Assembly (NCBI RefSeq): GCF_001895005.1
Contig: NZ_BCXH01000015.1
Span: forward strand, 62,001 to 126,000
DNA: 64,000 bases
Direction of reading: 5' to 3'
From: Rhodococcus yunnanensis NBRC 103083
GTDB taxonomy: Bacteria > Actinomycetota > Actinomycetes > Mycobacteriales > Mycobacteriaceae
The notes under the pieces are model-generated. The model was not told the origin of the DNA. It was given only the letters and a program-made list of their open reading frames with translations, and ran no database searches. Below, piece by piece: positions 3,926-37,289 of this stretch. Positions within the stretch are counted from its first letter, which is position 1. Every line of letters starts with the position of its first letter. A program made the translations under genes and the position numbers.

Positions 3926-3973
3926 TCCTAGACACTATGCGTCCACCCGAATCGGACATCGCAGGTGGCGAGC

Positions 3974-3998
3974 TACTCAACAGTAGGACGGTTGAGTA
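3974..3998. promoter_or_regulatory. Perfect inverted repeat, probable MarR operator
   Basis: TACTCAAC (3974-3981), a 9-base spacer, then GTTGAGTA (3991-3998): a perfect 8-bp inverted repeat. It lies in the 83-bp gap between the divergent aldo/keto reductase (start 3925) and the MarR gene (start 4009), 10 bases upstream of the marR start codon. Position and symmetry fit an autoregulatory operator that would also cover the reductase promoter. Confidence 0.7.
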
Positions 3999-4008
3999 AT
4001 ATGGCCCG

Positions 4009-4506
4009 GTGACGGCCGAACAATCCTTTGGTCCAGGGGGGGACCCGCAGTGGCTCGATGCTGCGGAAATGAGAGCGTGGCGCGCCTATGTCGACGGCGC
4101 CCAACGACTGATGGGGGTACTCAACAAGGATTTGCAGGACGGGCACGACTTGACGATGGCGGAGTATCGCATCCTGGTGATGCTCTCCGAGTCCGCGGAC
4201 GGGTCGCTGCGTATGAGCGATCTGGCCGACGGTGTGCTGTCCTCACGAAGCAGGCTCACACACCAGATCCGCAGGATGGAGGCCGACGGTATGGTCGGCC
4301 GCGACACGTGCGTCGACGACGGCAGGGGCGTCCTCGCCGTCATCACCGAAGAGGGTCGGAGGCGCCTCGCCGATGCGGCTCCCACGCACGTCGTCAGCGT
4401 GCGCAAGCATCTGGTCGATCTGCTGACACCGCAGCAGCTCGCGGTTCTCGGTGACATTTTCGAGAAGGTCGATGCCGCGATGACCAAGTCCGAAACGAAG
4501 GGGTGA
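4009..4506 (+). CDS. MarR family transcriptional regulator
   Basis: A 165-residue winged-helix regulator. GTG 4009 is used because it opens the frame just after the operator-like repeat. The core reads 'LTMAEYRILVMLSE' (helix 2), 'LRMSDLADGVLSSRSRLTHQ' (recognition helix) and 'RDTCVDDGRGVLAVITEEG' (beta wing with the conserved D-x-R-G). MarR proteins bind palindromic sites as dimers and release on binding a phenolic or oxidant ligand. The divergent aldo/keto reductase and the inverted repeat between them suggest it senses a reactive aldehyde or electrophile; the ligand is not deducible. Confidence 0.92.
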   Translation: MTAEQSFGPGGDPQWLDAAEMRAWRAYVDGAQRLMGVLNKDLQDGHDLTMAEYRILVMLSESADGSLRMSDLADGVLSSRSRLTHQIRRMEADGMVGRDTCVDDGRGVLAVITEEGRRRLADAAPTHVVSVRKHLVDLLTPQQLAVLGDIFEKVDAAMTKSETKG

Positions 4507-4544
4507 ATGGCCCCTCCGTCGGCGAGGCGTTTACTATTTCCAAC

Positions 4545-11510: not shown

Positions 11511-12046
11511 AACGCTTTCTGGTCTGTGCGTCGATCATTCTGGTGGGTGCGGTGATTCAGGCTCTGTTGGTGGTCGGCGATCCGATCCCGACGCAGTCAT
11601 GGGCATTCTCGTTACGAGTAGTGGCGTCGGCGTCGGTGCTGATTCTGTTGGTCTGGTCGACGTTCGGGATCGTCGACGACAACCGGCTCACTCTCCGTTT
11701 GCTGCTGGTCACGATTGTTGCGGTGTTCTGCGGAATTCTCGCGGGCATACTGAATCCGGTTCTGGCCCTTGTTGTTGCCGTGATCTCGCTGCCGGTGCTG
11801 GCGGCTGCGGCGGCCGGACCAGTGCATGCGGTCACTCGGACGATCAAGGCTGCCCCGGTCCGGGTATTTCTCGGATTGGCCTGGGCTGCAGTGCTGCTCA
11901 TCGTCAATGCAGCGGTCGCGCTCGTCCTCGGATTCTTCGTCACGGGCCCTGCCGCCGCCGGGCTGACGTGGCTCGCGTTCGGAATCAGTGCAGCGGTTCT
12001 GGCGATCTACTGGGCGTCGCTGCACCGGCGGGCGCAGTCGTCGTAA
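11507..12046 (+). CDS. Integral membrane protein of unknown function
   Basis: A 179-residue hydrophobic protein, start GTG 11507 overlapping the previous stop. I count about six membrane segments, for example 'CASIILVGAVIQALLVVG', 'LVTIVAVFCGILAGILNPVL', 'VFLGLAWAAVLLIVNAAVAL' and 'LTWLAFGISAAVLAIYWASL'. There are no recognisable catalytic motifs. It is the third gene of the phosphoesterase operon. Its 3' end overlaps by 62 bases the convergent pseudouridine synthase gene. Confidence 0.75.
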   Translation: MKRFLVCASIILVGAVIQALLVVGDPIPTQSWAFSLRVVASASVLILLVWSTFGIVDDNRLTLRLLLVTIVAVFCGILAGILNPVLALVVAVISLPVLAAAAAGPVHAVTRTIKAAPVRVFLGLAWAAVLLIVNAAVALVLGFFVTGPAAAGLTWLAFGISAAVLAIYWASLHRRAQSS

Positions 12047-12947
12047 CCCATCTCTCCAAGGTTCGACGTGTGTCGAATCGGCGCACGTCACCTGATATCG
12101 GGTCCGTGAACTCCATTGCCGATGCGAGAAGCTGGAGAGGTGCGGTGAAGTCGTCGAGCGGCCTGTCGGTGGGCTCGGGATAGAGGTCGTCGCCGAGTAT
12201 CGGGACGCCGAGGGAGTTCATGTGCAGCCGGAGTTGATGTGTCCGACCGGTCCGTGGGTGAAGTCGATACCGGCCCAGGCCGTCTCGAACCTCCAGAAGC
12301 TCCACGACAGTCTCGGCGTTCGGTTCGCCGTCGACCTCCCGTGCCTCGAAGTCGCCCCTCTCCTTGACGATTCGGCTTCGTAGAGTGAGTGGAAACTCCA
12401 GGTTCGAGTACGGCGCGATCGCCTCGTATTCCTTGTTGACCTTTCGGTCCTGAAACAGCGACTGGTACGCGCCGCGAGAGGCAGGGTCGACGACGAACAG
12501 CACCAATCCGGCAGTCACGCGATCGAGTCTGTGCGCGGGAACGAGAGCCGGGAGGTCGAGATCACGGCGCAACCGGACCAGTGCGCTCTGCAGAACATGG
12601 CCGCCGCGCGGAATGGTCGACAGAAAGTGCGGCTTGTCGACGACGAGAAGCGTCTCGTCGCGATGGACAACGGTGATATCGAACGGGACAGGCGGTTCGT
12701 CCGGCAGGTCGCGGTGAAACCACACCGCCTCGCCCGGAACGTACGGCGCATTCGCAGCCACGGGACCGTTCATGTCGACGATCTCGCCCCCGGCGAACAT
12801 CTCGTCGACGCGTTCTGCTGGGATCCTTGTCTCACGGGCGAGGACGAAGTCGACGATCGTGGCCCATTCGCCGTCCTCGGGCATGCGAACCCGGGCCGGA
12901 TCGAGACCGTGTCTCTTCGGCAACGGGGGTTGCTGCCGTCGTCTCAC
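11985..12947 (-). CDS. RluA-family pseudouridine synthase
   Basis: A 320-residue enzyme that isomerises uridine to pseudouridine in RNA. The catalytic motif is 'LVPAHRLDRVTAGLVLFV' with the Asp of HRLDR, and the C-terminal part has 'LHPRTGRTHQLRLHMNSLGV', the RluA-type RTG-x-x-HQLR element. The N-terminal 80 residues form an S4-like or specificity domain. I chose GTG 12947 ('VRRRQQPPLP') because upstream residues come from a repetitive intergenic inverted repeat. The target nucleoside is unknown. The last 62 bases overlap the convergent membrane protein gene. Confidence 0.88.
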   Translation of the reverse strand: MRRRQQPPLPKRHGLDPARVRMPEDGEWATIVDFVLARETRIPAERVDEMFAGGEIVDMNGPVAANAPYVPGEAVWFHRDLPDEPPVPFDITVVHRDETLLVVDKPHFLSTIPRGGHVLQSALVRLRRDLDLPALVPAHRLDRVTAGLVLFVVDPASRGAYQSLFQDRKVNKEYEAIAPYSNLEFPLTLRSRIVKERGDFEAREVDGEPNAETVVELLEVRDGLGRYRLHPRTGRTHQLRLHMNSLGVPILGDDLYPEPTDRPLDDFTAPLQLLASAMEFTDPISGDVRRFDTRRTLERWVTTTAPAGAATPSRSPEPLH

Positions 12948-23285: not shown

Positions 23286-24059
23286 TCATGATGCCGGTGA
23301 TTCGACTGGTGTGACAAGTCCTTGCCGGTCTTTGAGTCGGTAGCTGGGGCCGTTGATGGCCAGGACGTCGCAGTGATGCAGGAGTCGGTCGAGGATGGCG
23401 GTGGCGAGGACGTCGTCACCGAGGACGGTTCCCCATTCGGTGAAGTGTTTGTTGCTGGTGATGATCGTGGATCCCTTCTCGTATCTGCGGCTGATCAGCT
23501 GGAAGAACATGTTGGCTTCGTCGCGGTCGAGGGCGAGATAGCCGACTTCGTCGATGACCAGCAGTGACGGTCGCATGAGGTTGGCGAGTTGGCGAGGGAG
23601 CCGGTTCGCGGCGTCGGCTGCTTTGAGTTTGCGGACGAGGTCGTCGAGGGTGGTGAAGTAGATCGATTTTCCGGCTTGGCAGGCTGCGACTGCCAGCCCG
23701 ATCGCGATGTGGGTCTTGCCTACTCCGGGTGGTCCGAGAATGGCGATGTTGCCTGCGCCGGTGAGGAATTCGAGGGTTGCGAGGTCGCGTACCCGGCGTG
23801 GTTCGAGTCCGGGTTGGAAGGTGTAGTCGAAGTCGTCGAGGGTTTTGTGGTGCGGGAGCCCGGAGAGTTTGAGTGCGTTGCGGAACCGCCGTGATTCACG
23901 GACGGCGACTTCTTCGGAGAGGAGATGGTCGACGAAGTCGAGGTAGCCCATCTGGGCGGAGTCGGCGCGGGCAGCGGACTCGGTGACCGATTCGGCTGTG
24001 TGGCCCAGGCCCAGCCGGAGGGCGTTGTCGATGATCCGTTGGGTGGTCAATGAACTCAT
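23286..24059 (-). CDS. istB: IS21-family helper ATPase IstB
   Basis: A 257-residue AAA+ ATPase. Walker A is 'AILGPPGVGKTHIAIGLA', Walker B 'LLVIDEVGYLALDRD', sensor region 'STIITSNKHFTEWGTVLGDD'. IstB assembles on DNA and activates the IstA transposase for strand transfer and target choice. It is full length and intact, and lies 50 bases downstream of istA, the usual order. Confidence 0.95.
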   Translation of the reverse strand: MSSLTTQRIIDNALRLGLGHTAESVTESAARADSAQMGYLDFVDHLLSEEVAVRESRRFRNALKLSGLPHHKTLDDFDYTFQPGLEPRRVRDLATLEFLTGAGNIAILGPPGVGKTHIAIGLAVAACQAGKSIYFTTLDDLVRKLKAADAANRLPRQLANLMRPSLLVIDEVGYLALDRDEANMFFQLISRRYEKGSTIITSNKHFTEWGTVLGDDVLATAILDRLLHHCDVLAINGPSYRLKDRQGLVTPVESPAS

Positions 24060-24109
24060 GGATGTGTACTTCCCGTTCGCGAAAGATGTTGCGATGTTTG
24101 GTTTGTGGC

Positions 24110-25483
24110 CTAGACGGCGTAGGCGGAGAGGGGCCGGTGTTCGACGTGGATGTGACCGACGAGGGAGATGACCTTCGCGGTCAGCGGATCGGATCCGTCG
24201 ATGCCGCCGGCGTCGGCCGGTGCGTCGGTGGTGTCGGCGTCGCTGCGTCCGTCGGTGGTGGCGCGGGTGTGGCCGTCGGGCAGTGATGCCCAGTGCGCGG
24301 GGTCGACGATCCAGGCGCCGCGGACGTGTGAGCGTGTGTGCACGGCCAGGACGGCGCCGCCGGCGCTGTCGAGGGTGGCGATGGCGATGTTGTCGCTGCC
24401 GGCGCGGACTTGGACTCGTTGACCTGCCCGGACACGGTCCGCGGGGACGGAGTAGAGCGAGGCCTCGAAGGAGATCAGCGAGTCGTTGCCGATGCGCCGT
24501 AGATGGGCTTCGGCGACCAGATACGGCTCGGCCGGGATCGGACGCAACGCCGCGTGATCGACATCTGCTCGGACGCCGATGACCTCGCGGTGCGTGCGGT
24601 GCACCTGCGTCCGGCGGATCGGGACCCAGTCCATGAAGGTGCGATCGGTGTCGGCGAGGTCGGTGAAGGTGCGGCCGGCGAGGACATGATCGCGGACTAT
24701 TTTCACTTGCCGTTCCACGCGGCCTTTGCCGGTGGGCCGGTAGGCGGCGAGGACGTCGATGTCGAAGCCGTAGTGCCCGGAGAATGCGACCGCTGCCGGG
24801 TGCAGCGGTACGGCATGTCCGGGCCGGACATGTTTGCGGACAATGGTTTTGGTGCGGTCGTAGACGATCGAACCAGGCACGCCGCCGAAGTGCGCGAAGG
24901 CCCGGATGTGGCTGCCCCAGAACGCGGCGGCATCCATCGAATGGGTGTAGCAGCAGAACGGATCACGTGAGAACGAGAGGGCCATGTGGAAGGAGTAGAC
25001 CTTGCGGCCGGTGCCGAACAGGTCGCCCTCGTCTCCCCAGTCGACCTGTGCTTGGGCGCCGGGGATCGTTTCGAAGCGGCGGTGCAGGTTACCGAGGACG
25101 GATTCTTCGGCGCCGAGTTCATCCCGAATGATCGGATGTGCTGTGCTGCAGTAGATTTTGACGCGTTGGTAGTTGACGTTGACTGATTTTTCGTTGGTGA
25201 GGCGTTCGTGAATGACCGACGCTGCGATGGTGATGTCGGCGCGCAGCATCTCCTCGATCATGGCTGCGATGTCGTCAGCGATGGCACGTTGCTGGGTTCC
25301 TGCTCGCGAGGTCTCCTGCGGTGGATGGGCGGGTGCATCCTCGGCGAGGTATCGGCGGACGGTGCGCCAATCGCAGCCGCATTCGCGGGCGATGTCGGCG
25401 TAGGTCGCGCCGGCCTCGTGCAAGGTTTTGAAACGGCGGATGTTCATCCAAGACTCTCCATCAAGGATCATGGCAAGGGCCAC
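24110..25483 (-). CDS. istA: IS21-family transposase IstA
   Basis: A 457-residue DDE transposase. The N-terminal HTH is 'HEAGATYADIARECGCDWRT' + 'VRRYL'. DDE residues are likely Asp in 'QAQVDWGDEG', Asp in 'GSIVYDRTKTIV' and Glu in 'GKGRVERQVK'. A beta-barrel domain and a variable tail follow. The start may be at 25483 or the ATG at 25471. No lesion is seen, so the element could be active. Confidence 0.93.
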   Translation of the reverse strand: MALAMILDGESWMNIRRFKTLHEAGATYADIARECGCDWRTVRRYLAEDAPAHPPQETSRAGTQQRAIADDIAAMIEEMLRADITIAASVIHERLTNEKSVNVNYQRVKIYCSTAHPIIRDELGAEESVLGNLHRRFETIPGAQAQVDWGDEGDLFGTGRKVYSFHMALSFSRDPFCCYTHSMDAAAFWGSHIRAFAHFGGVPGSIVYDRTKTIVRKHVRPGHAVPLHPAAVAFSGHYGFDIDVLAAYRPTGKGRVERQVKIVRDHVLAGRTFTDLADTDRTFMDWVPIRRTQVHRTHREVIGVRADVDHAALRPIPAEPYLVAEAHLRRIGNDSLISFEASLYSVPADRVRAGQRVQVRAGSDNIAIATLDSAGGAVLAVHTRSHVRGAWIVDPAHWASLPDGHTRATTDGRSDADTTDAPADAGGIDGSDPLTAKVISLVGHIHVEHRPLSAYAV

Positions 25484-25610: not shown

Positions 25611-25989
25611 CGATAGCGCCCACAACGTCGAAGGTTTTCGGACTCGGCCCCGACACCGCTGCCGCGCTTCTGGTCACGGTCGGAGACAATCCCCAACGTC
25701 TCAAATCGGAATCCTCTTTCGCCCATCTATGCGGTGTCGCCCCGATCCCGGCCTCGTCGGGCAAGACCAACCGCCACCGTCTACACCGCGGAGGCGACCG
25801 ACGCGCCAATCAAGCACTCCATACCGCCGTCATCGTACGACTCAGATACAGCGACCAAGCTCGCAGTTACGCAGACGCCGCAGGTCAGAAGGCAAATCGA
25901 CGCCGGAGATAATCCGCTGCCAAAAACGCTACCTCGCCCGCGAAGTCTTCACCGCACTCCGACAGGATTACCTAGCCCTCATCACTTGA
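25611..25989 (+). pseudogene. IS110-family transposase, C-terminal remnant
   Basis: The frame reads 'TTSKVFGLGPDTAAALLVTV' + 'GDNPQRL', then 'FAHLCGVAPIPASSGKTNRH', the C-terminal (transposase_20) domain of IS110/IS116 enzymes with its catalytic Ser region ('PASSGKT'). The frame changes near 25880, where the end 'EIIRCQKRYLAREVFTALRQ' + 'DYLALIT' lies in another frame. The N-terminal half is missing where the IS21 element begins. Confidence 0.8.
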
Positions 25990-26284
25990 CATCTATAGGA
26001 GCGTCATTCGCTACCTCACGCAGCGCGTCTTTCTCCAATTCGGCGTCGGCGAGCAGGCGTTTGAGCTTGCTGTTCTGCTCGCGGAGTTCCTTGAGCTCCT
26101 TCGCGGCGTCGGTGTCCATGCCGCTGTATTGGCGGCGCCAGTTGTACAGCGTCGCTGCCGAAACCTCGAGCTCGGCGGCGATCTCGTCCTGTGTCTTGCC
26201 TGCAGCGGTGAGCTCGTCGGCGCGCCGTAGCTTGCACACGATGTCCTCTGCCGAGTTCCGCTTCCGTCCAGCCATGTTCTCCAT
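25982..26284 (-). pseudogene. IS3-family OrfA remnant (orfB absent)
   Basis: About 100 residues: 'AGRKRNSAEDIVCKLRRADE' is the typical OrfA start, followed by the HTH 'EVSAATLYNWRRQYSGMDTD' and the coiled coil 'ELKELREQNSKLKRLLADAE'. The end 'LREVANDAPIDVK' departs from the family and runs into the IS110 fragment. OrfB, with the DDE domain, is gone. An open frame to 26314 exists but the family start is at 26284 or a few codons later. Confidence 0.8.
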
Positions 26285-26314
26285 CGTCCTATCTGCCCTG
26301 TTCGTGGGCAACAA

Positions 26315-26669: not shown

Positions 26670-27785
26670 CTAAATAAGCTCCATCACCGGCCCTTCGTGC
26701 ACAGCCTTGTAAATAGTGTTGCGGATCATGTTCGCCTCTTCTGAAGTGAGCGTGCGGTCAATCGGGCGCAACACAATCCGCAACAATAAATTGACTTGAC
26801 CTTCGCAGGTTCCGAGGCGCAATCGGGCGGCCTCTGGTAGCTGATCATGGGTGGTCCTGCTAATAATTTCGACTGCTTCGATCACGTCTGCGTCGTGGTC
26901 TAGAGCGACTCGAATTCTGTCGCCCAGCGTCTCTTCGTCCTCTCCCTCTGGAAGGATCACAGAAATGTCACGTCGAGCCGCCGGAAGAGACGAAACATGC
27001 TGCCACGGCTCCAAGTTGAGCATTTGCGACGCAACGCGCGGATCTTCAGCCCTGAGGTATCGAATGTCGGGGATGGACTTACGCAACATAAGGGCACGCT
27101 CAAGCCCCATGCCTAGCGCCAATCCCGACCACTGGTCGGGATCAATACCAGACCCCCGCATCACATCAGGGCTGATGCGCCCGCATTCAGCAAGCTCAAG
27201 CCATTCACCGTTATGCAGCACATCAATTTGTCGCGCACCGACGGTATACGGATGCTCGACATCAGTCACCGCCCATTCGGCGCCAGGCAGAACCGCTTCC
27301 ACCAAACAGCTGATCATCGTGAGCATGTCGTTGTCGTTGATCGTAGGTGTGCTACAAATTCGCCACAGATCCACTTGGTGCGGTTCGCCAACATGGCTTC
27401 GATCCATCACATCTCGCCGGTACGTCAGGCCCGGAGCCACAATTAGCTCATCAACAACTTCTTGACCGCCATAGGTTTCGAGCGCATGCGGGAGTTCGGC
27501 GCTCGTATGGCTACGAAGCATGACTGTCGGACTTATATATCGGGTGTAGCGGCGGGCGCGAGTCACGTCGCAAGGGTCATAACCGAGACGGTCGTAATTC
27601 TCGCGAACAGGGACGACTGGCGAGTTGCGAACATAGCGAACTGAGCTACCCCAAACAGATTGAACCGAGGTCACTACTGCACTGAGCAGCGCTTGGACGG
27701 CATGTTCGCCTTGGCTTGGGTCTGTGAGATCGCGAATTTTTAACGCACGATAAAGCTGTTCAGACGTAAGATATTCGGGGTCCAT
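26670..27785 (-). CDS. Single-chain phenylalanyl-tRNA synthetase homologue in a biosynthetic cluster
   Basis: A 371-residue class II synthetase-like protein with the layout of organellar monomeric PheRS: catalytic core, then an FDX-ACB anticodon-binding domain (residues about 268-371, ending 'LTSEEANMIRNTIYKAV'). Motif 1 end 'MLRSHTSAELPHAL' (89-102), motif 2 'RRDVMDRSHVGEPHQVDL' (123-140) and motif 3 'LALGMGLERALMLRKSIPDI' (222-241) are all present, so amino acid activation is plausible. The pocket segment usually F-P-F-T reads 'HPYTVGARQIDV' and the E after HQ is D, hinting at altered specificity. Start ATG 27785 has GGAGG upstream. It could be a resistant PheRS copy or the activating enzyme of the cluster. 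Confidence 0.85.
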   Translation of the reverse strand: MDPEYLTSEQLYRALKIRDLTDPSQGEHAVQALLSAVVTSVQSVWGSSVRYVRNSPVVPVRENYDRLGYDPCDVTRARRYTRYISPTVMLRSHTSAELPHALETYGGQEVVDELIVAPGLTYRRDVMDRSHVGEPHQVDLWRICSTPTINDNDMLTMISCLVEAVLPGAEWAVTDVEHPYTVGARQIDVLHNGEWLELAECGRISPDVMRGSGIDPDQWSGLALGMGLERALMLRKSIPDIRYLRAEDPRVASQMLNLEPWQHVSSLPAARRDISVILPEGEDEETLGDRIRVALDHDADVIEAVEIISRTTHDQLPEAARLRLGTCEGQVNLLLRIVLRPIDRTLTSEEANMIRNTIYKAVHEGPVMELI

Positions 27786-27873
27786 AATTGTTGCCTCCAG
27801 AGTGGTTGCGGGTCAGGGTCTGTACCTCTCCCCCGACCGCACCTACGGAGACCTAGTGCACTGAATGCACGTT

Positions 27874-27907
27874 AAAAGCCCCGCGGCCATGCTCCGGCCG
27901 GGGGTTT
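27874..27907 (-). terminator. Terminator/attenuator upstream of the PheRS-like gene
   Basis: On the minus strand CCCCCGGCC, loop ggagcat, GGCCGCGGGG, then CTTTTAAC: an interrupted 9-10-bp GC stem followed by four T. It lies 90-120 bases upstream of the PheRS-like start and 165 bases after the MFS stop. It may end the MFS transcript or attenuate the synthetase gene. Confidence 0.65.
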
Positions 27908-28070
27908 CTAAATCGCTGAGTCCAACGCACAGGCCCACGATACAGCAGGGCGCCTTTTTTGGACAGTCCCTGCAATGACATCTCACGTAAACAACCTCGA
28001 AATAGCCAACACACAATCCGCTTGATGGAGAGGTTCGAACTGACCAATTCGGACATCATTTGATCTTGAG

Positions 28071-29303
28071 TCATGTCGATCCTTGTTCCGCTTGCGTGGC
28101 ATTTACGGATGACCAGCGCAGTAACAATCGCGTGGCGACTCCCACAGGCAGGAGCGCGATGGCCGCCAGCACGAGCCATCCTTGCTGGAAGGAAATCAGC
28201 GCTGTGACCAAGACGGGCCCAACGACCATCTGGACATCCAGCCCTAGTCCGAACACTGACTGATACTCACCGACCCGTCTTTCATCAGCCAGGGCGAAGG
28301 ACAGTCCCCATGCGCCCGCAGTCTGAACGATCTCGCTGATCGTTAGCAAGATGACTGCTGCAGCAAGCAAAGTCCACGAGAGCGCGGTCATTTGGTCACC
28401 TATGAACACCAGCAGCACACACGCGCCTGCCAACATCATGGTGCCGCGCCAGTGAGCTCTCGTCGCACCGCGCACGGTGTCGGTGCCTCGGCTAAGCCGC
28501 ACCTGGAGTCCGACCACCATTAGACAGTTGACCGCGAGGATCGACGGTACGACCCAGCTAGGCGCGTCTGTACGGTGTAGAAGCCACAGAGGAAGACCGA
28601 TCAGAAGCGCGGAATTGTGCAGGGATCCGAACATGCTAGCGATGGTGGCGACGACAAAGGGCCGATCTCGCAGCGCAACATAGCCTCGCCGAGACTCGGC
28701 TGCGACGGGTTTGGACCGAACAGGGGGCAAACGCAACGCAATCAGCACGCATGCCACAAACATGGCGACGTTGACTAGCAGTAACACATTGAAGGCGCCT
28801 GAGCCTCCAACGAGTAACGCTCCCGCTGCAAACAGACTGCCAAGTGCGAAACCGGCGTTGAGCGACACGTGTGCCGCAGCCCGGACCTTGAGCCGCATAG
28901 TGGGGAACAGTTGGGCAATCACTGCTGGGCGGATGGGGTTTAGCAGCCGCTGGCCGAGCACCACTAGTGATGTTGTGACAAAGAATCCGATCAACGACGT
29001 CGGCAGCAAGTAACCAAGCAGGAAGAGCGCGACTGCGCTATTCAGTAAGACGAGCAGTCCGCGGCGGTCTACGCGATCGGCAAGTTTACCGAATGGCAGT
29101 ATCAGGGCGAGGGCGACGAAGCTGGCGGTCGACAACGCGACGCTGATCTGCCCTGGGCTACGCTCAAGTACCTGGGTAAAAAACACTATTCGGGATGACA
29201 CGAACGCGCCCGCACCGAAGGCTTCCAGCCCGTACATGGCGATGATTCCGCGACGAGCCGAACTATTGGTCTCCAACTCGGTCGCTTCACCTGGCGAATT
29301 CAT
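28071..29303 (-). CDS. MFS exporter of the biosynthetic cluster
   Basis: A 410-residue major facilitator protein with 12 predicted membrane helices. The motif A loop between helices 2 and 3 reads 'PFGKLADRVDRRGLLVLL', typical of drug/proton antiporters. Closest in style to 12-helix exporters found beside peptide natural product genes. The gene lies 119 bases after the aminotransferase-carrier gene on the same strand. Its likely role is export of, and self-protection against, the cluster product. Codon use is less GC-biased than in the flanking core genes, as for the whole cluster. Confidence 0.85.
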   Translation of the reverse strand: MNSPGEATELETNSSARRGIIAMYGLEAFGAGAFVSSRIVFFTQVLERSPGQISVALSTASFVALALILPFGKLADRVDRRGLLVLLNSAVALFLLGYLLPTSLIGFFVTTSLVVLGQRLLNPIRPAVIAQLFPTMRLKVRAAAHVSLNAGFALGSLFAAGALLVGGSGAFNVLLLVNVAMFVACVLIALRLPPVRSKPVAAESRRGYVALRDRPFVVATIASMFGSLHNSALLIGLPLWLLHRTDAPSWVVPSILAVNCLMVVGLQVRLSRGTDTVRGATRAHWRGTMMLAGACVLLVFIGDQMTALSWTLLAAAVILLTISEIVQTAGAWGLSFALADERRVGEYQSVFGLGLDVQMVVGPVLVTALISFQQGWLVLAAIALLPVGVATRLLLRWSSVNATQAEQGST

Positions 29304-29421
29304 CGGGCAACTCCGACCGCAACGGTGATTCCACTCCGCAATTCGGCACAGGTGCGCGACCAGCCCCTGATTGGCGGACGCAGCAATGTGGTCGATCTCA
29401 CGAAATTTTGGACAATCAGCA

Positions 29422-30813
29422 TCAGGAGCAAGTTTCTACCTTCTTAGCTATTTGTGCGCTCATAGCGTCGATAAAATCGGTGAGCCTAGGGTTGTTATAG
29501 AGGTCACGAATCGAGGCGTTAAAGCCGTAGATTTCGCTAATTCTGTTGATGACTCGCGCTGCTGTCACGCTGTACCCGCCGGACTCGAAAAAGTCGGATT
29601 CGCCACTCACCTGGGCTGTGAGGACCTCACCCCAGATCAAGGTTATAGTTGCGCTGACATCAGTGGTGTTCTTGGTTATGTCGGCCATGCTCCAACCCTC
29701 ACGTGTGTCGTCGATCCGGTGGAGCCAACCATCGGAGGCTTTATCGATGCCGCGGTGAATGCTCGTTATCAGCGCTTGTAACTCTGCGGCGACCGGTCCG
29801 GGGCGACCGTCGCCAATTTGCCACGACCGGGCATGCCCGCGAACATGCCCGACCGAGGTAATTTGAGCAGCGGTGCCGCAGGCGAGGGTTTCGGTGAACC
29901 GGCCGGATATACAACCGGACTCCCACTCATCGACGCTTACCGGACGTTCAACCACGGAAAGTCCGAGACGAGGGCCAAGCTCCAGGATCGACTCCCTGGT
30001 AACGCCTGGCAATATTGTCCCGGTCAATGGCGGTGTGACCAACTGGGCGGCATCGGGCTCGACGAAAAGAAGATTCATTCCGCCGAGCTCTTCGATCCAC
30101 TGGCGTTCGATTGCGTCGAGCCAGACCACTTGGTCGCAACCATGTTCTGCGGCCTGCTCCTGTGCGCGATAGCTGGCGGCATAGTTTCCCGCGTACTTAG
30201 CCGCGCCTACCCCACCAGGGACGCTACGTACGTAGTCTTCACTCAACCAGACGTCGATGGCGCGCCTGGCACCGAAGAAGGTCTCTGTGACGAACCCTGT
30301 GAGCACGAACAGGTAGTTGCGAGAGGGATGAAGCCCGAGGTCCGCGTCGGCAGCTAGCAGAAGTGGGCGCAGATAGAGGCTACGGTCTTGTTCCAACGGA
30401 ACCCAAGCTGCATCCTCCCGAACTAAGTGCTCAACTGCGTGGACAAAGTCACACACTGGGAGTTGCGGCATCATCAGACGCTCAGCGGAGCGTTGGAATC
30501 GCTCGGCATATCGGTCGGGCCGGAATACGCCAACACATCCATCGTCCAGTCGATATGCCTTGAGCCCTTCGAAGACGATCTGCCCATAGTGCAAGCCCGC
30601 CGTGGCCGGATCCAAGAGCAGCGGGGCAAGAGGCTCGACCTGACCGTTGTGCCATCCCGCATCAGGACTCCACCGCAACGTGACCATGTGTTCGGTAAAT
30701 GCTCGACCGAAAGTAGCGTCCCGGCAGCGTTCGACCCGAGTCTCGACATCGAGCTTGTTGGTGGCCGCGCGGATGGTGAACTGCACAGCATCTCTATTCG
30801 CAGCGCTGGTCAT
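29422..30813 (-). CDS. Branched-chain aminotransferase fused to a carrier (PCP) domain
   Basis: A 463-residue fusion. Residues 1-370 are a class IV (IlvE-type) aminotransferase: 'GQIVFEGLKAYRLDDGCVGV', PLP lysine in 'GGVGAAKYAGNYAAS', and 'LACGTAAQITSVG'. Residues about 385-463 are a thiolation domain with the phosphopantetheine serine in 'DFFESGGYSVTAARV'. The fusion implies that an amino or keto acid is transaminated near, or while tethered to, the carrier. The start overlaps the stop of the condensation-carrier gene (ATGA), so they are coupled. The usual branched-chain specificity may be relaxed; this is inference. Confidence 0.87.
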   Translation of the reverse strand: MTSAANRDAVQFTIRAATNKLDVETRVERCRDATFGRAFTEHMVTLRWSPDAGWHNGQVEPLAPLLLDPATAGLHYGQIVFEGLKAYRLDDGCVGVFRPDRYAERFQRSAERLMMPQLPVCDFVHAVEHLVREDAAWVPLEQDRSLYLRPLLLAADADLGLHPSRNYLFVLTGFVTETFFGARRAIDVWLSEDYVRSVPGGVGAAKYAGNYAASYRAQEQAAEHGCDQVVWLDAIERQWIEELGGMNLLFVEPDAAQLVTPPLTGTILPGVTRESILELGPRLGLSVVERPVSVDEWESGCISGRFTETLACGTAAQITSVGHVRGHARSWQIGDGRPGPVAAELQALITSIHRGIDKASDGWLHRIDDTREGWSMADITKNTTDVSATITLIWGEVLTAQVSGESDFFESGGYSVTAARVINRISEIYGFNASIRDLYNNPRLTDFIDAMSAQIAKKVETCS

Positions 30814-32249
30814 AGGGGTTCCTTTCCTGGTGGTGAATCCTCCGGCTTCAGCCCGAGGAATTCGATATCGGCTTGCTCCTCAGTCATTTCCAGCAACCCC
30901 AAGACAAACCTCGCCTCGGCCATTGCAAACTGCCCACCTCCGAGCGCAGCAGCTAGGTTTGCTGCCACCAAGCGCGGTGTCGGGGCTCGGAACATCGTGA
31001 CCTCTGTAATTCCAGAGTCATGCGCCAGCCCGAACAATTCCCGTAGTTCAACAGCGATACGAGCAGCAGCGAGAGAATGTCCCCCTAGTGCCAAAAAGTC
31101 CTCGTCCGGGTCGTTAACCTCAGTCCGCAAGTGAATGGCCCACACCGCCTGCACTATGCTGATCATCACGTCATCCGAGTCCGGCAAGGGTAAAGTTGTG
31201 GGTTCGGTAGGTATTTCGGGCGCGGCCGATGCCGTAGGTACGCTTACGAGTTCGGATAGTTCTGAAATCATGACAGCTTCGGGGTCAGACAGTGCGGTGC
31301 ACAGTAATTCTATGAACTCGTCGGCTATTTGGCCGGCCGCAGTATCGTCGTAAAGCGTGATCGCGTAGATAAGTTCGAGATCCGCACAGTCCTGCTCACG
31401 ATCGAGCACGCTAACAGTGAGCGCGAAAGGCGAGCGGCCGCTGTGAAGTTGCTCGATCGGGCCGATGTCCAAGCCGGCAAAGCCGTTGCGAGGTACCCGG
31501 ATGGGATCGACAAGGGCAAACAGCACCTGAAACAACGGACCGAATCCGCTAATACGAGGTGGGTGAACCTCCTCGACCACTGCCTCGAACGGCAACCGCT
31601 GGTGGTCCATCGCGTCGAAAACGGATTCTCTTATGTTCCGCACCAACGCGCCAAACGACATTTCACGGAAAACTGTTCGAATTACCACGACGTTTACCAA
31701 ATAGCCGATCAATCGCTCGAACGCACTCTGGTTCCGAGCGGCCACTGGAGTGCCGACGGCGACGTCGGACAGCCCCGTGAGTCTGTGCAAGAGAACGTTC
31801 ACGACAGCGAGATAGACGGTAAATTGGGATGTATGTTGGCTACGCGCAAACTCACGCACTTTCGCGACAACACTTGCAGGCAAGGAACGCTTACAGATCC
31901 GAGTCTCCCACGATCGCGCTCCGCCCAGTCTTTCTCTCTCTGTGTTGCCACGGCTGGACGGCGGAAGCACCAACTCTGGTACTCCCGCAAGCTGCTTCCG
32001 CCAGAAGTCAACCAGTGCAGGCCTATTGGGGCCACGAAGTAGATCCTGCTCTACCTTTACAGCGTCGGCGTAGCGTGCTTCCAGGATGGGAAGCATAGGA
32101 TCCTCACCGCGCACACGGGCAGAGTAGATCTCGCCGAGCTCTTCCAGCAGCACATCGCGCGATACTCCGTCGAATATGATGTGGTGCACAATAAAAAGCC
32201 TTGATGGTCGCTGTAAATACCGCCTGACAGTGCGGTAACTGTCGTTCAC
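30810..32249 (-). CDS. NRPS condensation-carrier protein, N-terminally truncated
   Basis: A 479-residue protein. The condensation motif 'IVHHIIFDGVSRDVLLEEL' (HHxxxDG) lies at residues 22-28, whereas in full domains it comes after about 130 residues, so the first part of the N-lobe is missing. The rest is intact: 'VAVGTPVAARNQSAFERLIG' and 'DHQRLPFEAVVEEVHPPR'. A C-terminal carrier has the pantetheine serine in 'DFLALGGHSLAAARI'. No adenylation domain is present in the cluster. GTG 32249 is the first start; the 280 bases upstream hold only broken frames. It may be a decayed gene or start-less remnant. Confidence 0.78.
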   Translation of the reverse strand: MNDSYRTVRRYLQRPSRLFIVHHIIFDGVSRDVLLEELGEIYSARVRGEDPMLPILEARYADAVKVEQDLLRGPNRPALVDFWRKQLAGVPELVLPPSSRGNTERERLGGARSWETRICKRSLPASVVAKVREFARSQHTSQFTVYLAVVNVLLHRLTGLSDVAVGTPVAARNQSAFERLIGYLVNVVVIRTVFREMSFGALVRNIRESVFDAMDHQRLPFEAVVEEVHPPRISGFGPLFQVLFALVDPIRVPRNGFAGLDIGPIEQLHSGRSPFALTVSVLDREQDCADLELIYAITLYDDTAAGQIADEFIELLCTALSDPEAVMISELSELVSVPTASAAPEIPTEPTTLPLPDSDDVMISIVQAVWAIHLRTEVNDPDEDFLALGGHSLAAARIAVELRELFGLAHDSGITEVTMFRAPTPRLVAANLAAALGGGQFAMAEARFVLGLLEMTEEQADIEFLGLKPEDSPPGKEPL

Positions 32250-32526: not shown

Positions 32527-33231
32527 TCAATCGTTCGTGTAGCCGAGTGCGAGACGTAGCGCTCTTGCTTCGTCAAGGTCCGGCGAGTGTGGATCGCCTG
32601 AGAGTCGAAAGACAGTCCCGTGAACGGCTTCGCTGACATCGACGGTTCCAGGAAGGAGCGCGAGGTCCACGTCGACGGCACTTGCGACGTACGTCAACCA
32701 TCCGACCGGAATCTCCTTTGCACGTCGGTTGATCTTCTGCGCTTTCCGAAATGATGCGGTTAGTGCCGACGCATGATCGGGCTGCCATGTTTCGATAAGG
32801 GTATCGAAGGATTCTTTGACCACGGGTGCTGTTCCGGTGGCGGGGATTGCATGGTCAGGGTTGGGGAAGTCGAATTGCACGAAGTTGCCGGTGCGCACGT
32901 TTTCGACGTTGCACCGGACGCGGTACTTCACGGGACGGTCATTGTGAAGGCGGGCCAGGGTGAAGCTGAATCCGCTGCCGTCCATTACCTCACCGCGATC
33001 GTTCATGAGCCTGCTGGACTCGACCAACTCCGAGAGGCCATCCAAACCTGTTGGCAAGGAATCTAGATCGGCGGCACTGGATGCGCCGCCCTCGGGAATC
33101 ACGAGCCAATTCGAGAACAGATCTCGTTGCGCTGGAATGCCATCGACCGACTTGCTGAGCCGCTCTGCGCACTGGTAGGCCGACTCCGAGCGTGGTCCCC
33201 ACGCGAGCCCAACCGTCAAGCTTTCACTCAC
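32527..33231 (-). CDS. Imm52-family immunity protein
   Basis: A 234-residue cytoplasmic protein. GTG 33231 is preceded by GGAGGGACGTAGG; an ATG at 33246 is an alternative. The opening 'TVGLAWGPRSESAYQCAERL' matches the Imm52 pattern (aromatic-W-G-x-R-x-E-S...C-A), a family reported beside Tox-REase-5 nuclease toxins, which is exactly its neighbour. Later, 'DLFSNWLVIPEGG' and 'GWLTYVASAVDVDL' also fit. It should neutralise the toxin by direct binding. It is intact although the toxin gene is broken. Confidence 0.78.
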   Translation of the reverse strand: MSESLTVGLAWGPRSESAYQCAERLSKSVDGIPAQRDLFSNWLVIPEGGASSAADLDSLPTGLDGLSELVESSRLMNDRGEVMDGSGFSFTLARLHNDRPVKYRVRCNVENVRTGNFVQFDFPNPDHAIPATGTAPVVKESFDTLIETWQPDHASALTASFRKAQKINRRAKEIPVGWLTYVASAVDVDLALLPGTVDVSEAVHGTVFRLSGDPHSPDLDEARALRLALGYTND

Positions 33232-33250
33232 CCTACGTCCCTCCATCTCG

Positions 33251-34321
33251 TTACTTCGGCGGAACAAAGACAACCTCGATCTGACCGAAACCGGCAGCAT
33301 CGAGAGTATTCTGCATCGCCTCAGCGGCGCGTTCGTCGGCAGCAGACCACACAACCGGAGTGTCACCCGCCGCAGCCAGCTGACGTTCGGCTTGTTTAAG
33401 AAGCTCGTCGTCGCCTTTGAAGAACGGTTTCCACTCACCATTCGCATCCAGAAACTGCTCGTATCCGGGACCTTTGGCGTCCTGAAGTGCCCCTCCGCGA
33501 ACCCGTCGAACGCAACCCCGTCGACAACATACTCGGTTCCGGGTGGGCTACCGGTTACCTGCTCCTGGTACTCCATGGCCCGCTCGGACATGTGGTGGTT
33601 TCGAGCTTCCCATTGGCCTGGGCCATCGTCGGAGCGGAATACATCCGGGATCTTTGACAGGATCTCGTCTACGGATGCGACTGCACCGAACTTGTCCTGC
33701 AAGTAGGCGATGACTGCTGCGCCGCTGACAACGCCGGTCGCGGTCAGCGCTGCGGTTGCTAGAACCGATGGCGGAGGCGAACCCGATGATCACAAGCGGG
33801 AAGAAGCCCTGCATGCCGCCGTTCGAGTCGCCCAGCGCCGCAGTCGTAGACTCCACTGCTGACGCCGCGGCCGCATCTGCGGCCAGGAGTTCCGCCTGCG
33901 CTACGGTAATCGCTGTTGTCCACTCAGCGAGCTTTGCAGCCGCATCCGGTGCATCTGGGTCCAACGGGACTAGCGCCCAATTGTCGGACACAAGAATGCC
34001 GTTCGCTTCCGCAAGCTTGGCGAGGTGGAGCAACCGTAACCGGGCAGTGGCAATATTCGCCAAGCCGAATGTGACGTCCGCCCGAATTTGCTTGATCCCG
34101 CCAGCCGTGATCTTCGCGCCGTTAGCGAGTGTGTCGATCTGCTCACTGGCGGCATCATGGGCGCTACCGCTCCACGCCCCATCTGAGGGCGTGCCCGACA
34201 CGTGCGAGCTGAGACGCTTGCTCTGACTCGAGAGTCTTTCCGCAATGTCGTCCAGCATCTTGATTTGTGCGGACGCGGAGGTTGGATCCCACGTCGAGAT
34301 GGCTTCCCGCTGATAGCTCAC
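33251..34321 (-). pseudogene. WXG-type polymorphic toxin with Tox-REase-5 nuclease end, two frameshifts
   Basis: The N-terminal part (GTG 34321) is a WXG100-like helical domain with 'DGAWSGSAHDAASEQIDTLA', marking a type VII secretion substrate. Near 33765 the frame changes into 'LATAALTATGVVSGAAVIAY' + 'LQDKFGAV', a hydrophobic hinge. The C-terminal domain starts with 'HHMSERAMEYQEQVTGSPPG' and reaches 'VAFDGFAEG'; at a run of four C (33490-33493) the frame changes again into 'ALQDAKGPGYEQFL', 'QAERQLAAAGDTPVVWSAAD', ending at 33251. These are the restriction-endonuclease-fold catalytic blocks of Tox-REase-5. One base at each site would repair it. Confidence 0.77.
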
Positions 34322-34538: not shown

Positions 34539-37289
34539 TCAGGCAGCCTCGACCATGAGTCTCACTAGTTGTGTTCGATTGTTTATTCCCAGCTTTCGAT
34601 AAATGTGTGTCAGATGGATATCGACGGTCCGGGGACTCAGGTGCAGCAGATCAGCTATTGCCCGGGTCCGCATTCCAGTTGCCGTGATCTGCGCGATCTC
34701 CACCTCTCGCCGGGTCAGCGACGCGAGTGCGGGGGGTGGTGTGGTAGCGGTCTCTCTCGAAATCGGTATGACCTTGCGGCGAGTGGACTCGGTGTTCTCG
34801 TAGACGACGGACTTGCCGGCCCGATGTGCGAGTTCTCGCGCCGCCCGCAGGTCCGGGGCGCCGTTACCATCCTGTCCGGCGGCTGAGGCTAGGGCCCCCG
34901 CTTCGTTGAGTGCACGGATCTGCGGTCCCCGCATACTCAGCTCCGCAAAAAGCTGCGCGGACCGGCGATACAGCTCGGCCGCCACCAGATGCTGCTCGCG
35001 CATCCGAGCCAGATGACCCGCCGCCAGAGTGGCATAAGCGTTCGCGTGTCCGGCCGCACCGGCACCGGACGCCGCCTGCTGGGCGCGGTCGACCCAATCG
35101 ACTGTGATTGGGTCGTCCTGGTCGGCGCCGATGTCGGCCAGGGTTTCGTAGCACCAGGGACGCATCGACGGTGCAATGAACGACAGATCGGCTCCCGCCC
35201 CTGTGGATAAGATGACGGCGGCGCAGCGATCAGCGTCCCCGTGCATCTTCAGCGCGGAGGCCAGTTGTAGTGCTGCATTCGTGCCGAACCACCAGCCGCC
35301 CAACTTCCGAGTAACGAGCGCCTTCTCTGCGGACTGGACGGAGACCGAGCTACCGTCTACCCGGTCACTCCAGGAAAGATACGAGTATTCGAGCACTTCG
35401 GCGACCTCTGCGACCCGGCCGGCGCCGAGTGCCCTCGCCGCGGTCTTTGCATCGGTGGCGATCCGTTGGGCGGTATCGACAAGCGCTTTGCAGTGGTAGG
35501 CCGTACTCAGTCCTATGAGAATGACAGGTGTCATGCAGGACAGCCCGTGTTTATGTGCGATGGACATCTGGCGCTCGAAATGAGCTATAGCGGAATCGAA
35601 TTGCGCTGTCATGATCTCGGACCATCCGAGGATGGCGAGGTAGTCGGGATAGTCGTCCAGTTCGTCGTCTGTGGAGAGTATCGCAAGCTCGGCGGCATGC
35701 GATATTTTCTGCGCTGCGCTCGCGAAGTCGCCGTGGTAGGCGGCGGACAGGGCCGCCATGCCGACCATCGCGAGCTCGTCCACGTTCGTCATCTGATGGG
35801 CATGTCGCGAGTTACGGCGTGGTGGCACCGATCCGAGTTGGTCGATGTCAGGAAGTTCTCCGTCGAACATGCCAACGATCGTGAGGCGGGCGACCATTCG
35901 AATCTTGTCTGTGAGTCGATGGTTACTCGGTCTGCTGATCTCGACCTGGAGATCAGTGCGTGCGGACACGTCCTCCTCGAGAAAGCACTTGATCAGGGCC
36001 AGATCTGTCACGATCAACGAACGTTGGCGATCTGTGGCGCCGACACGCTGCTGCGTCAGGATGGCCGCTGCGTCGACCAGTTTTCCCTGAGTGACGAGTG
36101 CCTTCGCGAGGAGACGGTTCTGCTGAACGGCCTGATCGCCCGGGGTTGCGACGTCCGCAGCTATACGCAACCATCTGATTGCGTCATCGGGGCGGTCTGC
36201 GAGGACCTCCTGGGCCGCGAGGCTGAACGTCTCGAGACCGGAAGCGCATCGGCTCGCCGCGATTTCGAGATGACTCGCGAGCGTGGGTGCTTTGGCTGTC
36301 TCGGCGAGCACCACTGAAGCACTCAGGTGAAGCTTCTTTCGGTGGGCCGGCCGGATCTGGCGGTACACTGCGTGACGAACCAACTCGTGCCGGAACCGGA
36401 ATACCTGCGGCTCCAGGGTCGGTCGGATCAGATCGTGGTCGAGTAGTTCTTCCTGCGTTTCGGCAACGTCGATCGACTGCTCGAGGAGCTGGGCGGCATA
36501 AACGATCGAAAAAGTGCTGCCGAGTATCGCTGCCGCCTGCAGGAGAGTTGTACCGGAGCGCGTCAAAGCCTCGGTCTCACCAGCGACGAGATCGTCGAAC
36601 TGGGTGTCGGCAGGGTTGTCGTCGACTGTCCACTCCCAAGTAGATGATTTTGCCAGGAACAGTAGATACCGCGGCACTCCATTACTGGCGCTGTGTACGT
36701 TCATCAGATCGAGTCCGGACATTTCTGCCAGTGCGGACGATTGCTCAACGGTCAATGGCGGCAACGGCATACGGATTGTATGACCTGTCTCACATCCCTT
36801 GGCAAGAGCTGAGCGCAGTGCCGAAGTTGCTTGGCGGGGACGATACGAGAGTACGAGTAGCACCGGGCCGCCAAGTGGGTGGCGGGTGAGGTATTCGACC
36901 AGCTGAATACTTTCGTCGTCCGCGTGATGGAAATCATCGAGCACGAGGAGCGTTGGGATCGAGCGTAATTCGTGCAATGCCCTGTGTAGCTCTTGCATGG
37001 TCGGCTGGGTGCCTCGCGGCGCTGCGTCTTCCAGTAGGGGCGAGAGCGCTGACAGGGGTGAGCGCCGATCTTGCGCCGCACTACGGCCGTGGAGAACAGC
37101 AATGCCAAGATCTTTTGCCTGTTGGCACATTCCGACGACGAGGCGGGTCTTACCGGAGCCGGGTTCACCTGCCAGCGCTATCAATCCGCCAGTACCCTTG
37201 GCCAGTTGGTGAAGCGCGTCGGTCAGTTCGGCGGCTTCAGATGTGCGTACCTGAACGGTATCGGCTGAGGTGAGGCGCGCAAAGTCCAC
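34539..37289 (-). CDS. Large ATP-binding LuxR (LAL/MalT-like) regulator
   Basis: A 916-residue regulator. N-terminal AAA/NACHT-like ATPase: Walker A 'LAGEPGSGKTRLVVGM' (about residue 38), Walker B 'TLLVLDDFHHADDESI'. A long TPR-like middle follows. The C-terminal LuxR helix-turn-helix is 'LTRREVEIAQITATGMRTRA' + 'IADLLHLSPRTVDIHLTHIY'. LAL proteins switch on natural product or catabolic genes in response to a ligand. It is transcribed away from the broken aldo/keto reductase and toward the toxin/biosynthetic region. Regulation of the PheRS/carrier cluster is possible but not shown by any site I can see. Confidence 0.9.
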   Translation of the reverse strand: MDFARLTSADTVQVRTSEAAELTDALHQLAKGTGGLIALAGEPGSGKTRLVVGMCQQAKDLGIAVLHGRSAAQDRRSPLSALSPLLEDAAPRGTQPTMQELHRALHELRSIPTLLVLDDFHHADDESIQLVEYLTRHPLGGPVLLVLSYRPRQATSALRSALAKGCETGHTIRMPLPPLTVEQSSALAEMSGLDLMNVHSASNGVPRYLLFLAKSSTWEWTVDDNPADTQFDDLVAGETEALTRSGTTLLQAAAILGSTFSIVYAAQLLEQSIDVAETQEELLDHDLIRPTLEPQVFRFRHELVRHAVYRQIRPAHRKKLHLSASVVLAETAKAPTLASHLEIAASRCASGLETFSLAAQEVLADRPDDAIRWLRIAADVATPGDQAVQQNRLLAKALVTQGKLVDAAAILTQQRVGATDRQRSLIVTDLALIKCFLEEDVSARTDLQVEISRPSNHRLTDKIRMVARLTIVGMFDGELPDIDQLGSVPPRRNSRHAHQMTNVDELAMVGMAALSAAYHGDFASAAQKISHAAELAILSTDDELDDYPDYLAILGWSEIMTAQFDSAIAHFERQMSIAHKHGLSCMTPVILIGLSTAYHCKALVDTAQRIATDAKTAARALGAGRVAEVAEVLEYSYLSWSDRVDGSSVSVQSAEKALVTRKLGGWWFGTNAALQLASALKMHGDADRCAAVILSTGAGADLSFIAPSMRPWCYETLADIGADQDDPITVDWVDRAQQAASGAGAAGHANAYATLAAGHLARMREQHLVAAELYRRSAQLFAELSMRGPQIRALNEAGALASAAGQDGNGAPDLRAARELAHRAGKSVVYENTESTRRKVIPISRETATTPPPALASLTRREVEIAQITATGMRTRAIADLLHLSPRTVDIHLTHIYRKLGINNRTQLVRLMVEAA

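Follow-up and report, generated by a model that had tools for sequence, protein, structure and literature searches.

A single-chain phenylalanyl-tRNA synthetase (PheRS) homologue, SrmL, is encoded in the 64,000-nucleotide stretch of Rhodococcus yunnanensis NBRC 103083 analysed here (the window; contig C15:62001-126000 of a 6.37-Mb genome). The gene, srmL, probably specifies an auxiliary PheRS that, as judged from its sequence, would be kept off by ribosome-mediated attenuation until charged tRNA-Phe becomes scarce. The DNA contains a recognizable protein family and domain architecture, a leader open reading frame (ORF) with a phenylalanine codon, a hairpin a few bases behind that codon, and a strand complementary to the Shine-Dalgarno (SD) sequence, the anti-SD strand, that can pair in two ways. 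From this conservation of sequence and structure we infer charging by SrmL, phenylalanine sensing by the leader and the selective agent. The gene and its control elements are listed below, with pairing values from two leader alignments, A3 (28 leaders) and A4 (29 leaders of a second subfamily).

26670..27785, minus strand: srmL, single-chain PheRS homologue (class II core and FDX-ACB), NCBIfam NF051887
27794..27798, minus strand: SD sequence of srmL (GGAGG), located by sequence; paired and hidden in the free fold
27847..27852, minus strand: anti-SD strand (GTCTCC); pairs with the SD in 98.5% of cells in helix 1
27853..27930, minus strand: leader ORF, MRWTQRFRNPRPEHGRGAFNVHSVH, start GTG; F-x-x-P-[R/G]-type leader in 109 of 113 srmL loci
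27879..27888, minus strand: attenuator segment 2 (GGCCGCGGGG); pairs with segment 1 or with the anti-SD strand (99.2% of cells, A3)
27896..27904, minus strand: attenuator segment 1 (CCCCCGGCC); standard pairs with segment 2 in 91.8% of cells in A3 and 95.0% in A4
27910..27912, minus strand: conserved leader Phe codon (TTT), the proposed sensor; from an alignment of 57 leaders

SrmL scored 507.9 bits against NF051887 ("PheS-related mystery ligase SrmL"; curated cut-off 300), matching positions 1-349 of 349. As an earlier sequence-only reading of this DNA had proposed, the protein has a class II core with motifs 1-3 followed by an anticodon-binding domain, which is the architecture of a PheRS; the FDX-ACB match, at 29.8 bits, lies slightly below the Pfam cut-off of 31.1. 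Its best structural match was a tRNA-bound PheRS, and the host genome also has a pheS and a pheT of its own. Among the literature matches listed for "SRML", the titles pointed to other senses of the term and the full phrase was absent; those listed for PheRS paralogs, actinobacterial phenylalanine attenuators, phage PheRS and PheRS self-resistance contained nothing on SrmL.

The leader region (27786-27933) separates srmL from the gene for a major facilitator superfamily (MFS) exporter. Phenylalanine occupies residue 3-9 of a short leader ORF, within the motif F-x-x-P-[R/G], in 109 of 113 srmL loci, a count that refers to a relaxed motif: the strict form, F-x-x-P-[RG]-[PL], was found in 3 of 25 leaders in class-wide loci, and it was relaxed to F-x-x-P-[RG] plus a GC arm after 11 leaders had been read. 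Control searches returned the strict motif in 29 of about 20,000 random windows and the relaxed one in 66 of 20,000, and each in none of 32 stretches beside PheS genes. Two of the four loci missing the motif (L055 and L097) retain only the 3' half, near a contig end, a third (L031) also lies near a contig end, and the last (L106) looks rearranged. Among 107 distinct picks, the leader Phe was encoded by TTT in 102 cases and by TTC in 5, three of those five picks being wrong, with true leaders that carry TTT; the Phe codons of the srmL genes themselves were TTC 84 times and TTT 5 times. The residue preceding the leader Phe varies, and the Pro and Arg that follow it are encoded by the GC-rich arm of the hairpin. 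Three automatic picks (L040, L056 and L069) were misplaced or out of frame and are still included in the duplex tests and stall folds described below; for the leader alignment and for a model built from it (R1; 4 base pairs, mostly sequence), the L040 reference was corrected by hand, and those of L056 and L069 are shifted by one base. When run on 61 genomes, R1 ranked six srmL leaders at the top, most of them its own training sequences, and a seventh at rank 14. It revealed no use of the leader elsewhere among the three weaker matches that were inspected (L146, L147 and L148), two of which read as carrier-domain coding sequences of nonribosomal peptide synthetases (NRPS) and one as an unrelated frame. 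Rfam 15 gave no match on the leader up to E = 1; its sole match, mir-540 at 25469, fell under the gathering score.

With Phe-tRNA plentiful, the ribosome would pass the Phe codon, segments 1 and 2 would pair, and the anti-SD strand would hide the start of srmL. With Phe-tRNA scarce, the ribosome would wait on the Phe codon and cover segment 1, whereupon segment 2 would capture the anti-SD strand and srmL would be translated. Both mutually exclusive helices and a leader ORF with the relevant codon, as expected of an attenuator, are present, and no intrinsic terminator precedes srmL at the window leader. The anti-SD:SD helix in A3 consists of 98.5% standard pairs and contains two pairs in which both partners have changed. 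The alternative helix, formed by segment 2 and the anti-SD strand, reaches 99.2% and likewise contains two doubly changed pairs; slid versions of it gave 43-57%. One A4 leader that was drawn out has SD and anti-SD sequences that differ from those of A3 yet are complementary. Duplex tests on 106 leaders supported all three pairings, the alternative helix being the weakest (mean z -0.8 and -1.0). A constrained fold of the window leader displayed the switch (0.2 to 10.3 bp). When the transcript ended before the SD and a ribosome was placed at the Phe codon, the hairpin fell from 8.8 to 1.8 bp and the alternative helix rose from 3.6 to 11.8 bp. The alternative helix gained at least 3 bp in 87 of 107 leaders, an equal fall being seen in none, or in one with a longer footprint; with 20 extra upstream bases the Phe stall switched 77 of 107.

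More distant members of the family support a phenylalanine signal, some through Phe-containing leaders and terminators and others through nearby tRNA-Phe genes. One protein from an Azotobacter plasmid and six phage proteins scored above the NF051887 cut-off. The Azotobacter gene (L165; 49%, 514.7 bits) has the leader ...RSHRFSRPW... followed by a terminator, the phage gene L166 (40%, 423.4 bits) combines the leader MNTNTTFNFFFSHKMV with a terminator, and the leader of the phage gene L168 (387 bits) is MLNKNNFSFFMFDFFGTQARGAILLKE, with two terminator-like hairpins also present. In the plasmid and these two huge phages the same logic would act on an intrinsic terminator. The two huge-phage leaders hold four and six Phe codons, and no Pro-Arg. 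In L169, the tRNA gene closest to srmL on either side encodes tRNA-Phe, and in L171 a tRNA-Phe lies close upstream; each of these loci shows 12 tRNA genes, including 2 for tRNA-Phe. The frame that precedes srmL in L167 was interpreted as the end of a HisRS. Altogether, the six phage loci (L166-L171) comprise two with a Phe leader, two with a near tRNA-Phe and two with neither.

The distribution of srmL suggests horizontal transfer. Of 8000 candidates scored in a protein search with SrmL, 1822 reached E <= 0.001, a set that may include ordinary PheS. Matches of SrmL grade (E < 1e-100) were patchy, occurring in 8 of 101 relative genomes, and 26 of 394 class-wide genomes had SrmL above the cut-off, 21 of these belonging to a single family of which 22 genomes were sampled. 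In that actinobacterial family (f34; L109, L111, L114-L124, L126-L133) SrmL is present in 21 of the 22 genomes, as if srmL were a core gene, and the ten leaders read from it conform to the type MPGQRWFSGPRSANVRRPEGAHA (F-x-x-P-R-S). The window SrmL shares 79-80% with copies from Nocardia, Labedella and Streptomyces records but 54-57% with the copies of three other same-genus genomes, which is the basis for proposing transfer; a fourth same-genus copy reached 77%. The gene was also found on one Glutamicibacter plasmid and on the Azotobacter plasmid, and in one phage record and five IMG/VR contigs of 181-578 kb. The Corynebacterium diphtheriae plasmid OV884290.1 carries, at 11582-12229, an unannotated piece of SrmL (residues 156-371, 74.5% identity).

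No conserved partner gene of srmL was seen across 87 neighbourhoods. The neighbour clusters found in most loci would, from their length and place, be frames overlapping srmL itself, and the next-commonest cluster occurred in 30 loci at scattered distances. Scanning of 50 bacterial srmL loci detected no tRNA-Phe beside the gene, with tRNA genes in 3 and a tmRNA in 1. Ten exporters were scanned, one of them on a plasmid and the other nine drawn from a neighbour cluster with 16 members, and seven scored above the NCBIfam cut-off for Cmx/CmrA-family chloramphenicol exporters. They lie 0.3 to 6.7 kb from srmL, in several genera and on one plasmid, at the following positions:

L164 (plasmid), 3326-4507: Cmx/CmrA exporter
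L040, 8326-9507: Cmx/CmrA exporter
L044, 8397-9662: Cmx/CmrA exporter
L044, 14559-15734: Cmx/CmrA exporter
L023, 6256-7446: Cmx/CmrA exporter
L025, 12784-13908: Cmx/CmrA exporter
L054, 17789-18979: Cmx/CmrA exporter

The occurrence of these exporters in five chromosomal loci and on the plasmid suggests that srmL travels with resistance genes. By analogy with the indolmycin-resistant auxiliary TrpRS of Streptomyces, the most likely role of srmL, which moves between bacteria, would be to bypass an inhibited or lost house PheRS. In its fullest form, which we put forward tentatively and hold to be somewhat less probable than its opposite, the proposal is that SrmL is a bypass PheRS of mitochondrial type, spread by plasmids, phages and islands, provided with a Phe-sensing attenuator, and selected by a common natural inhibitor of bacterial PheRS or, in the phages, because infection deprives the host of Phe-tRNA.

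Several observations weigh against an auxiliary PheRS under phenylalanine control. The PheRS activity of SrmL is a prediction from sequence, and the selecting inhibitor is postulated. The mitochondrial model TIGR00469 (pheS_mito) gave 123.3 bits and its cut-off of 258.35 was not reached. The search motif itself demands F, and actinobacterial leaders contain a single conserved Phe codon rather than a run. The first hairpin in A3 had no excess of two-sided changes over shuffles (409 of 500 shuffles reached it), and in the window's own duplex test the pairing of segment 2 with the anti-SD strand was near chance and that of the anti-SD strand with the SD weak. Four of the six phage loci lack a Phe leader and four lack a near tRNA-Phe; the tRNA-Phe genes that do lie near srmL belong to large arrays of tRNA genes, and the one in L171 is separated from srmL by a tRNA-Val. 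In full-leader folds, scored for 39 of 43 extracted leaders, a ribosome at the Phe codon left the SD open in 2 of 39, and one placed at the leader stop codon opened it in 16 of 39. As the full-length fold is closed with a Phe stall, the modelled switch must be set during transcription; the opposite logic, in which a ribosome at the leader stop codon opens the SD, may apply instead according to these folds.

The amino acid pocket of SrmL is a further objection. The motif HPYTVGARQIDV, on which the sequence-only reading had based an altered pocket, is present as described, and comparison with the host PheS revealed differences at three positions, with His178, Tyr180 and Glu200 in SrmL versus Phe, Phe and Gly in the host protein. 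The pocket of bacterial type (Phe258, Phe260 and a glycine floor) is thus absent from SrmL, and another substrate is possible. SrmL might activate another, more polar amino acid, or aminoacylate something besides tRNA-Phe, the Phe codon only reporting an accompanying stress, and both the polar pocket and the "mystery ligase" chosen as a name by the NCBI curators agree with this. We consider it rather unlikely. Human cytosolic PheRS, a true PheRS, has Asn/Tyr at the positions of the bacterial Phe/Phe, according to excerpts of PMC3275996, and because it too departs at the first two positions the altered pocket is weaker evidence than had been thought. In addition, SrmL keeps FDX-ACB, its closest structure is a PheRS with bound tRNA, and the leaders and nearby tRNAs indicate phenylalanine.

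The stall folds bear on a second alternative, in which the leader would respond to a ribosome stalled by a drug, or to slow Pro/Arg decoding, rather than to uncharged tRNA-Phe, srmL then being drug-induced in the manner of inducible resistance genes. The motif fixes Pro at +3 (107), and Arg occupies +4 in 98 of 107; both are conserved as much as Phe, and in the modelled folds stalls on these codons switch the leader equally well: any stall at codons -1 to +4, the conserved Pro/Arg codons included, switched 73-82 of 107, stalls farther upstream still switched 54-59 of 107, and late stalls lost the switch. The Phe codon is placed in the right stretch, and the modelled fold alone does not single it out. 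The Cmx/CmrA exporters near srmL would also fit drug induction. Nevertheless, the GC stem dictates the Pro/Arg codons and not the Phe codon, and the phage leaders contain runs of Phe without Pro-Arg, so that induction by a drug or by slow Pro/Arg decoding appears improbable, and an auxiliary PheRS governed by charged tRNA-Phe is retained as the preferred explanation.

The surroundings of srmL in the window had invited another interpretation, that of a compact NRPS-like cluster of four genes that would lack an adenylation domain. The ORFs at 26670-27785, 28071-29303, 29422-30813 and 30810-32249 are indeed all leftward, with the Pfam domains tRNA-synt_2d and FDX-ACB, MFS_1, Aminotran_4 and PP-binding, and Condensation and PP-binding, respectively, as that interpretation had stated. 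It was also right that no adenylation domain is present: none of the 92 AMP-binding matches in the genome lies inside the window, those on the same contig (C15:18422 and C15:156802) being outside it. The grouping of the four genes did not hold, since srmL has its own leader and relatives of the three NRPS-type genes were absent beside SrmL in 7 relatives (blastp) and in the neighbour clustering of 87 srmL loci, flanks being incomplete in some; these comparisons covered relatives of the window's carrier genes, and carrier genes unrelated to them were not part of the search. The three NRPS-type genes and the mobile elements bordering them are:

28071..29303, minus strand: MFS exporter of the NRPS remnant; 79% and 67% identity to the exporters that accompany these genes in L159 and L163
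29422..30813, minus strand: branched-chain aminotransferase-carrier protein of the NRPS remnant (Pfam); relatives in L159, L161 and L163
30810..32249, minus strand: condensation-carrier protein, N-terminally truncated; homology from ~32198, with ~118 N-terminal residues gone
23286..25483, minus strand: IS21-type istA/istB, adjoining the locus; NF033546 and NF038214 above cut-off
25982..26314, minus strand: IS3-type transposase fragment; partial match to NF033516, 46.5 bits against a cut-off of 160

Sequence comparison indicates that the window NRPS genes are the 3' fragment of an ordinary adenylation-bearing cluster, unrelated to srmL, because the condensation gene is truncated, the three homologous clusters found all have AMP-binding domains and lack SrmL, and insertion sequence (IS) genes border the remnant. 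The Pfam condensation match begins at position 134 of 456, residue 18 of the window protein aligns to residue 136 of a 598-aa relative, and eight relatives measure 550-598 aa; no missing N-lobe was seen by eye in the three frames just upstream. Searches with the condensation protein (E <= 1e-75; 0 of 3, 2 of 390 and 1 of 354 genomes) led to three homologous clusters (L158-L163), two in one family and one in another. An aminotransferase search at E <= 1e-145 across 397 genomes of the order matched a single one, that of the window, and an NRPS cluster search at E <= 1e-140 returned 0 of 5 and 0 of 22 genomes. The aminotransferase lies near the condensation gene in all three clusters (79, 74 and 68%), arranged as in the window, and the exporter is nearby in two. 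Each cluster has an AMP-binding A-carrier protein and a C-A-carrier protein as well as thioesterase domains, with extra AMP-binding domains in the Kutzneria-like and Micromonosporaceae-like ones. No SrmL was found in the ~40 kb fetched around each; the lone PheRS-like match (L161; 34% over 74 residues) probably represents the ordinary PheS of that host. This cluster type is rare, and includes AurF- and OTCase-like genes in the Kutzneria-like example and a carbamoyltransferase in the Amycolatopsis-like one. Outside the window, SrmL and the NRPS genes were encountered apart, in the three clusters and in the srmL loci compared, and the adenylation-free cluster was rejected as a conserved gene set.

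A resistant PheRS copy had also been suggested earlier, as protection against the product of this cluster. A spare, possibly inhibitor-resistant PheRS fits much better than carrier loading does. Shielding of the host from the window's own NRPS product, for which the adjacency of srmL to the NRPS genes speaks, is very improbable, as a leader of the same kind occurs in 109 of 113 loci, the 87 neighbourhoods have no shared partner, copies exist on plasmids and in huge phages, and the three cluster relatives lack SrmL within the fetched 40 kb. Loading of the two carrier domains by SrmL in place of an adenylation domain, conceivable given the lack of an AMP-binding match in the window and the existence of class II synthetase-like carrier ligases, was ruled out for practical purposes by the adenylation domains of all three homologous clusters and the context of srmL elsewhere, with the truncated condensation domain and SrmL's tRNA-binding domain and own leader also opposing it. 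Adenylation domains in the homologous clusters were an outcome that the sequence-only reading had itself named as fatal to the loading model.

The IS remnants reported beside the locus were confirmed as the IS21 genes and the IS3 fragment. The lower GC content was borne out: it is 0.57-0.59 at ~26-33 kb versus 0.60-0.66 over most of the window, with stretches just as low at ~19-23 and ~60-63 kb. Beside the shortened condensation gene, two ORFs at 32527-34321, one matching Imm52 (immunity protein 52) and the other without a family match, look like part of another locus, and 34539-37289 encodes an AAA/LuxR-type regulator of 916 aa.

If the proposed function is right, a curated "mystery ligase" family would gain a concrete function and an inducer, read from its own leader peptide. 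A single-chain PheRS would then work outside mitochondria, in bacteria and huge phages, and the spread of SrmL would point to unrecognised natural PheRS inhibitors. The sequence in any case removes the tempting but wrong picture of an adenylation-free NRPS.

Regarding known systems, NF051887 supplies a name without a function, to which this analysis adds the leader with its Phe codon, the copies on plasmids and in phages, and the tRNA-Phe genes close by. The mitochondrial single-chain PheRS (human FARS2) has the same domain order as SrmL and is both its best fold match, over nearly the whole chain, and its best PDB sequence match; identity in structural alignments is 27-29%, and the pocket is Phe/Phe/Gly in FARS2 versus His/Tyr/Glu in SrmL. 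The class II synthetase-like amino acid:carrier protein ligases are not known to have a tRNA-binding domain, and SrmL, which has FDX-ACB, falls outside that group. Attenuators of the E. coli pheST and pheA type combine a leader peptide containing Phe codons with competing helices. The srmL leaders share both features, together with terminator-like hairpins in L165, L166 and L168; unlike pheST and pheA, the window leader has one conserved Phe codon, and the element hidden is the SD sequence and not a terminator. Vecchione and Sello, in work cited by PMC4787780, reportedly described in 2010 an auxiliary, indolmycin-resistant TrpRS of Streptomyces under ribosome-mediated attenuation. It offers a direct precedent for srmL, being an additional synthetase whose attenuator would respond to the amino acid that the enzyme itself uses; the amino acid, the enzyme class and the level of control differ, and antibiotic resistance is a feature of the TrpRS.

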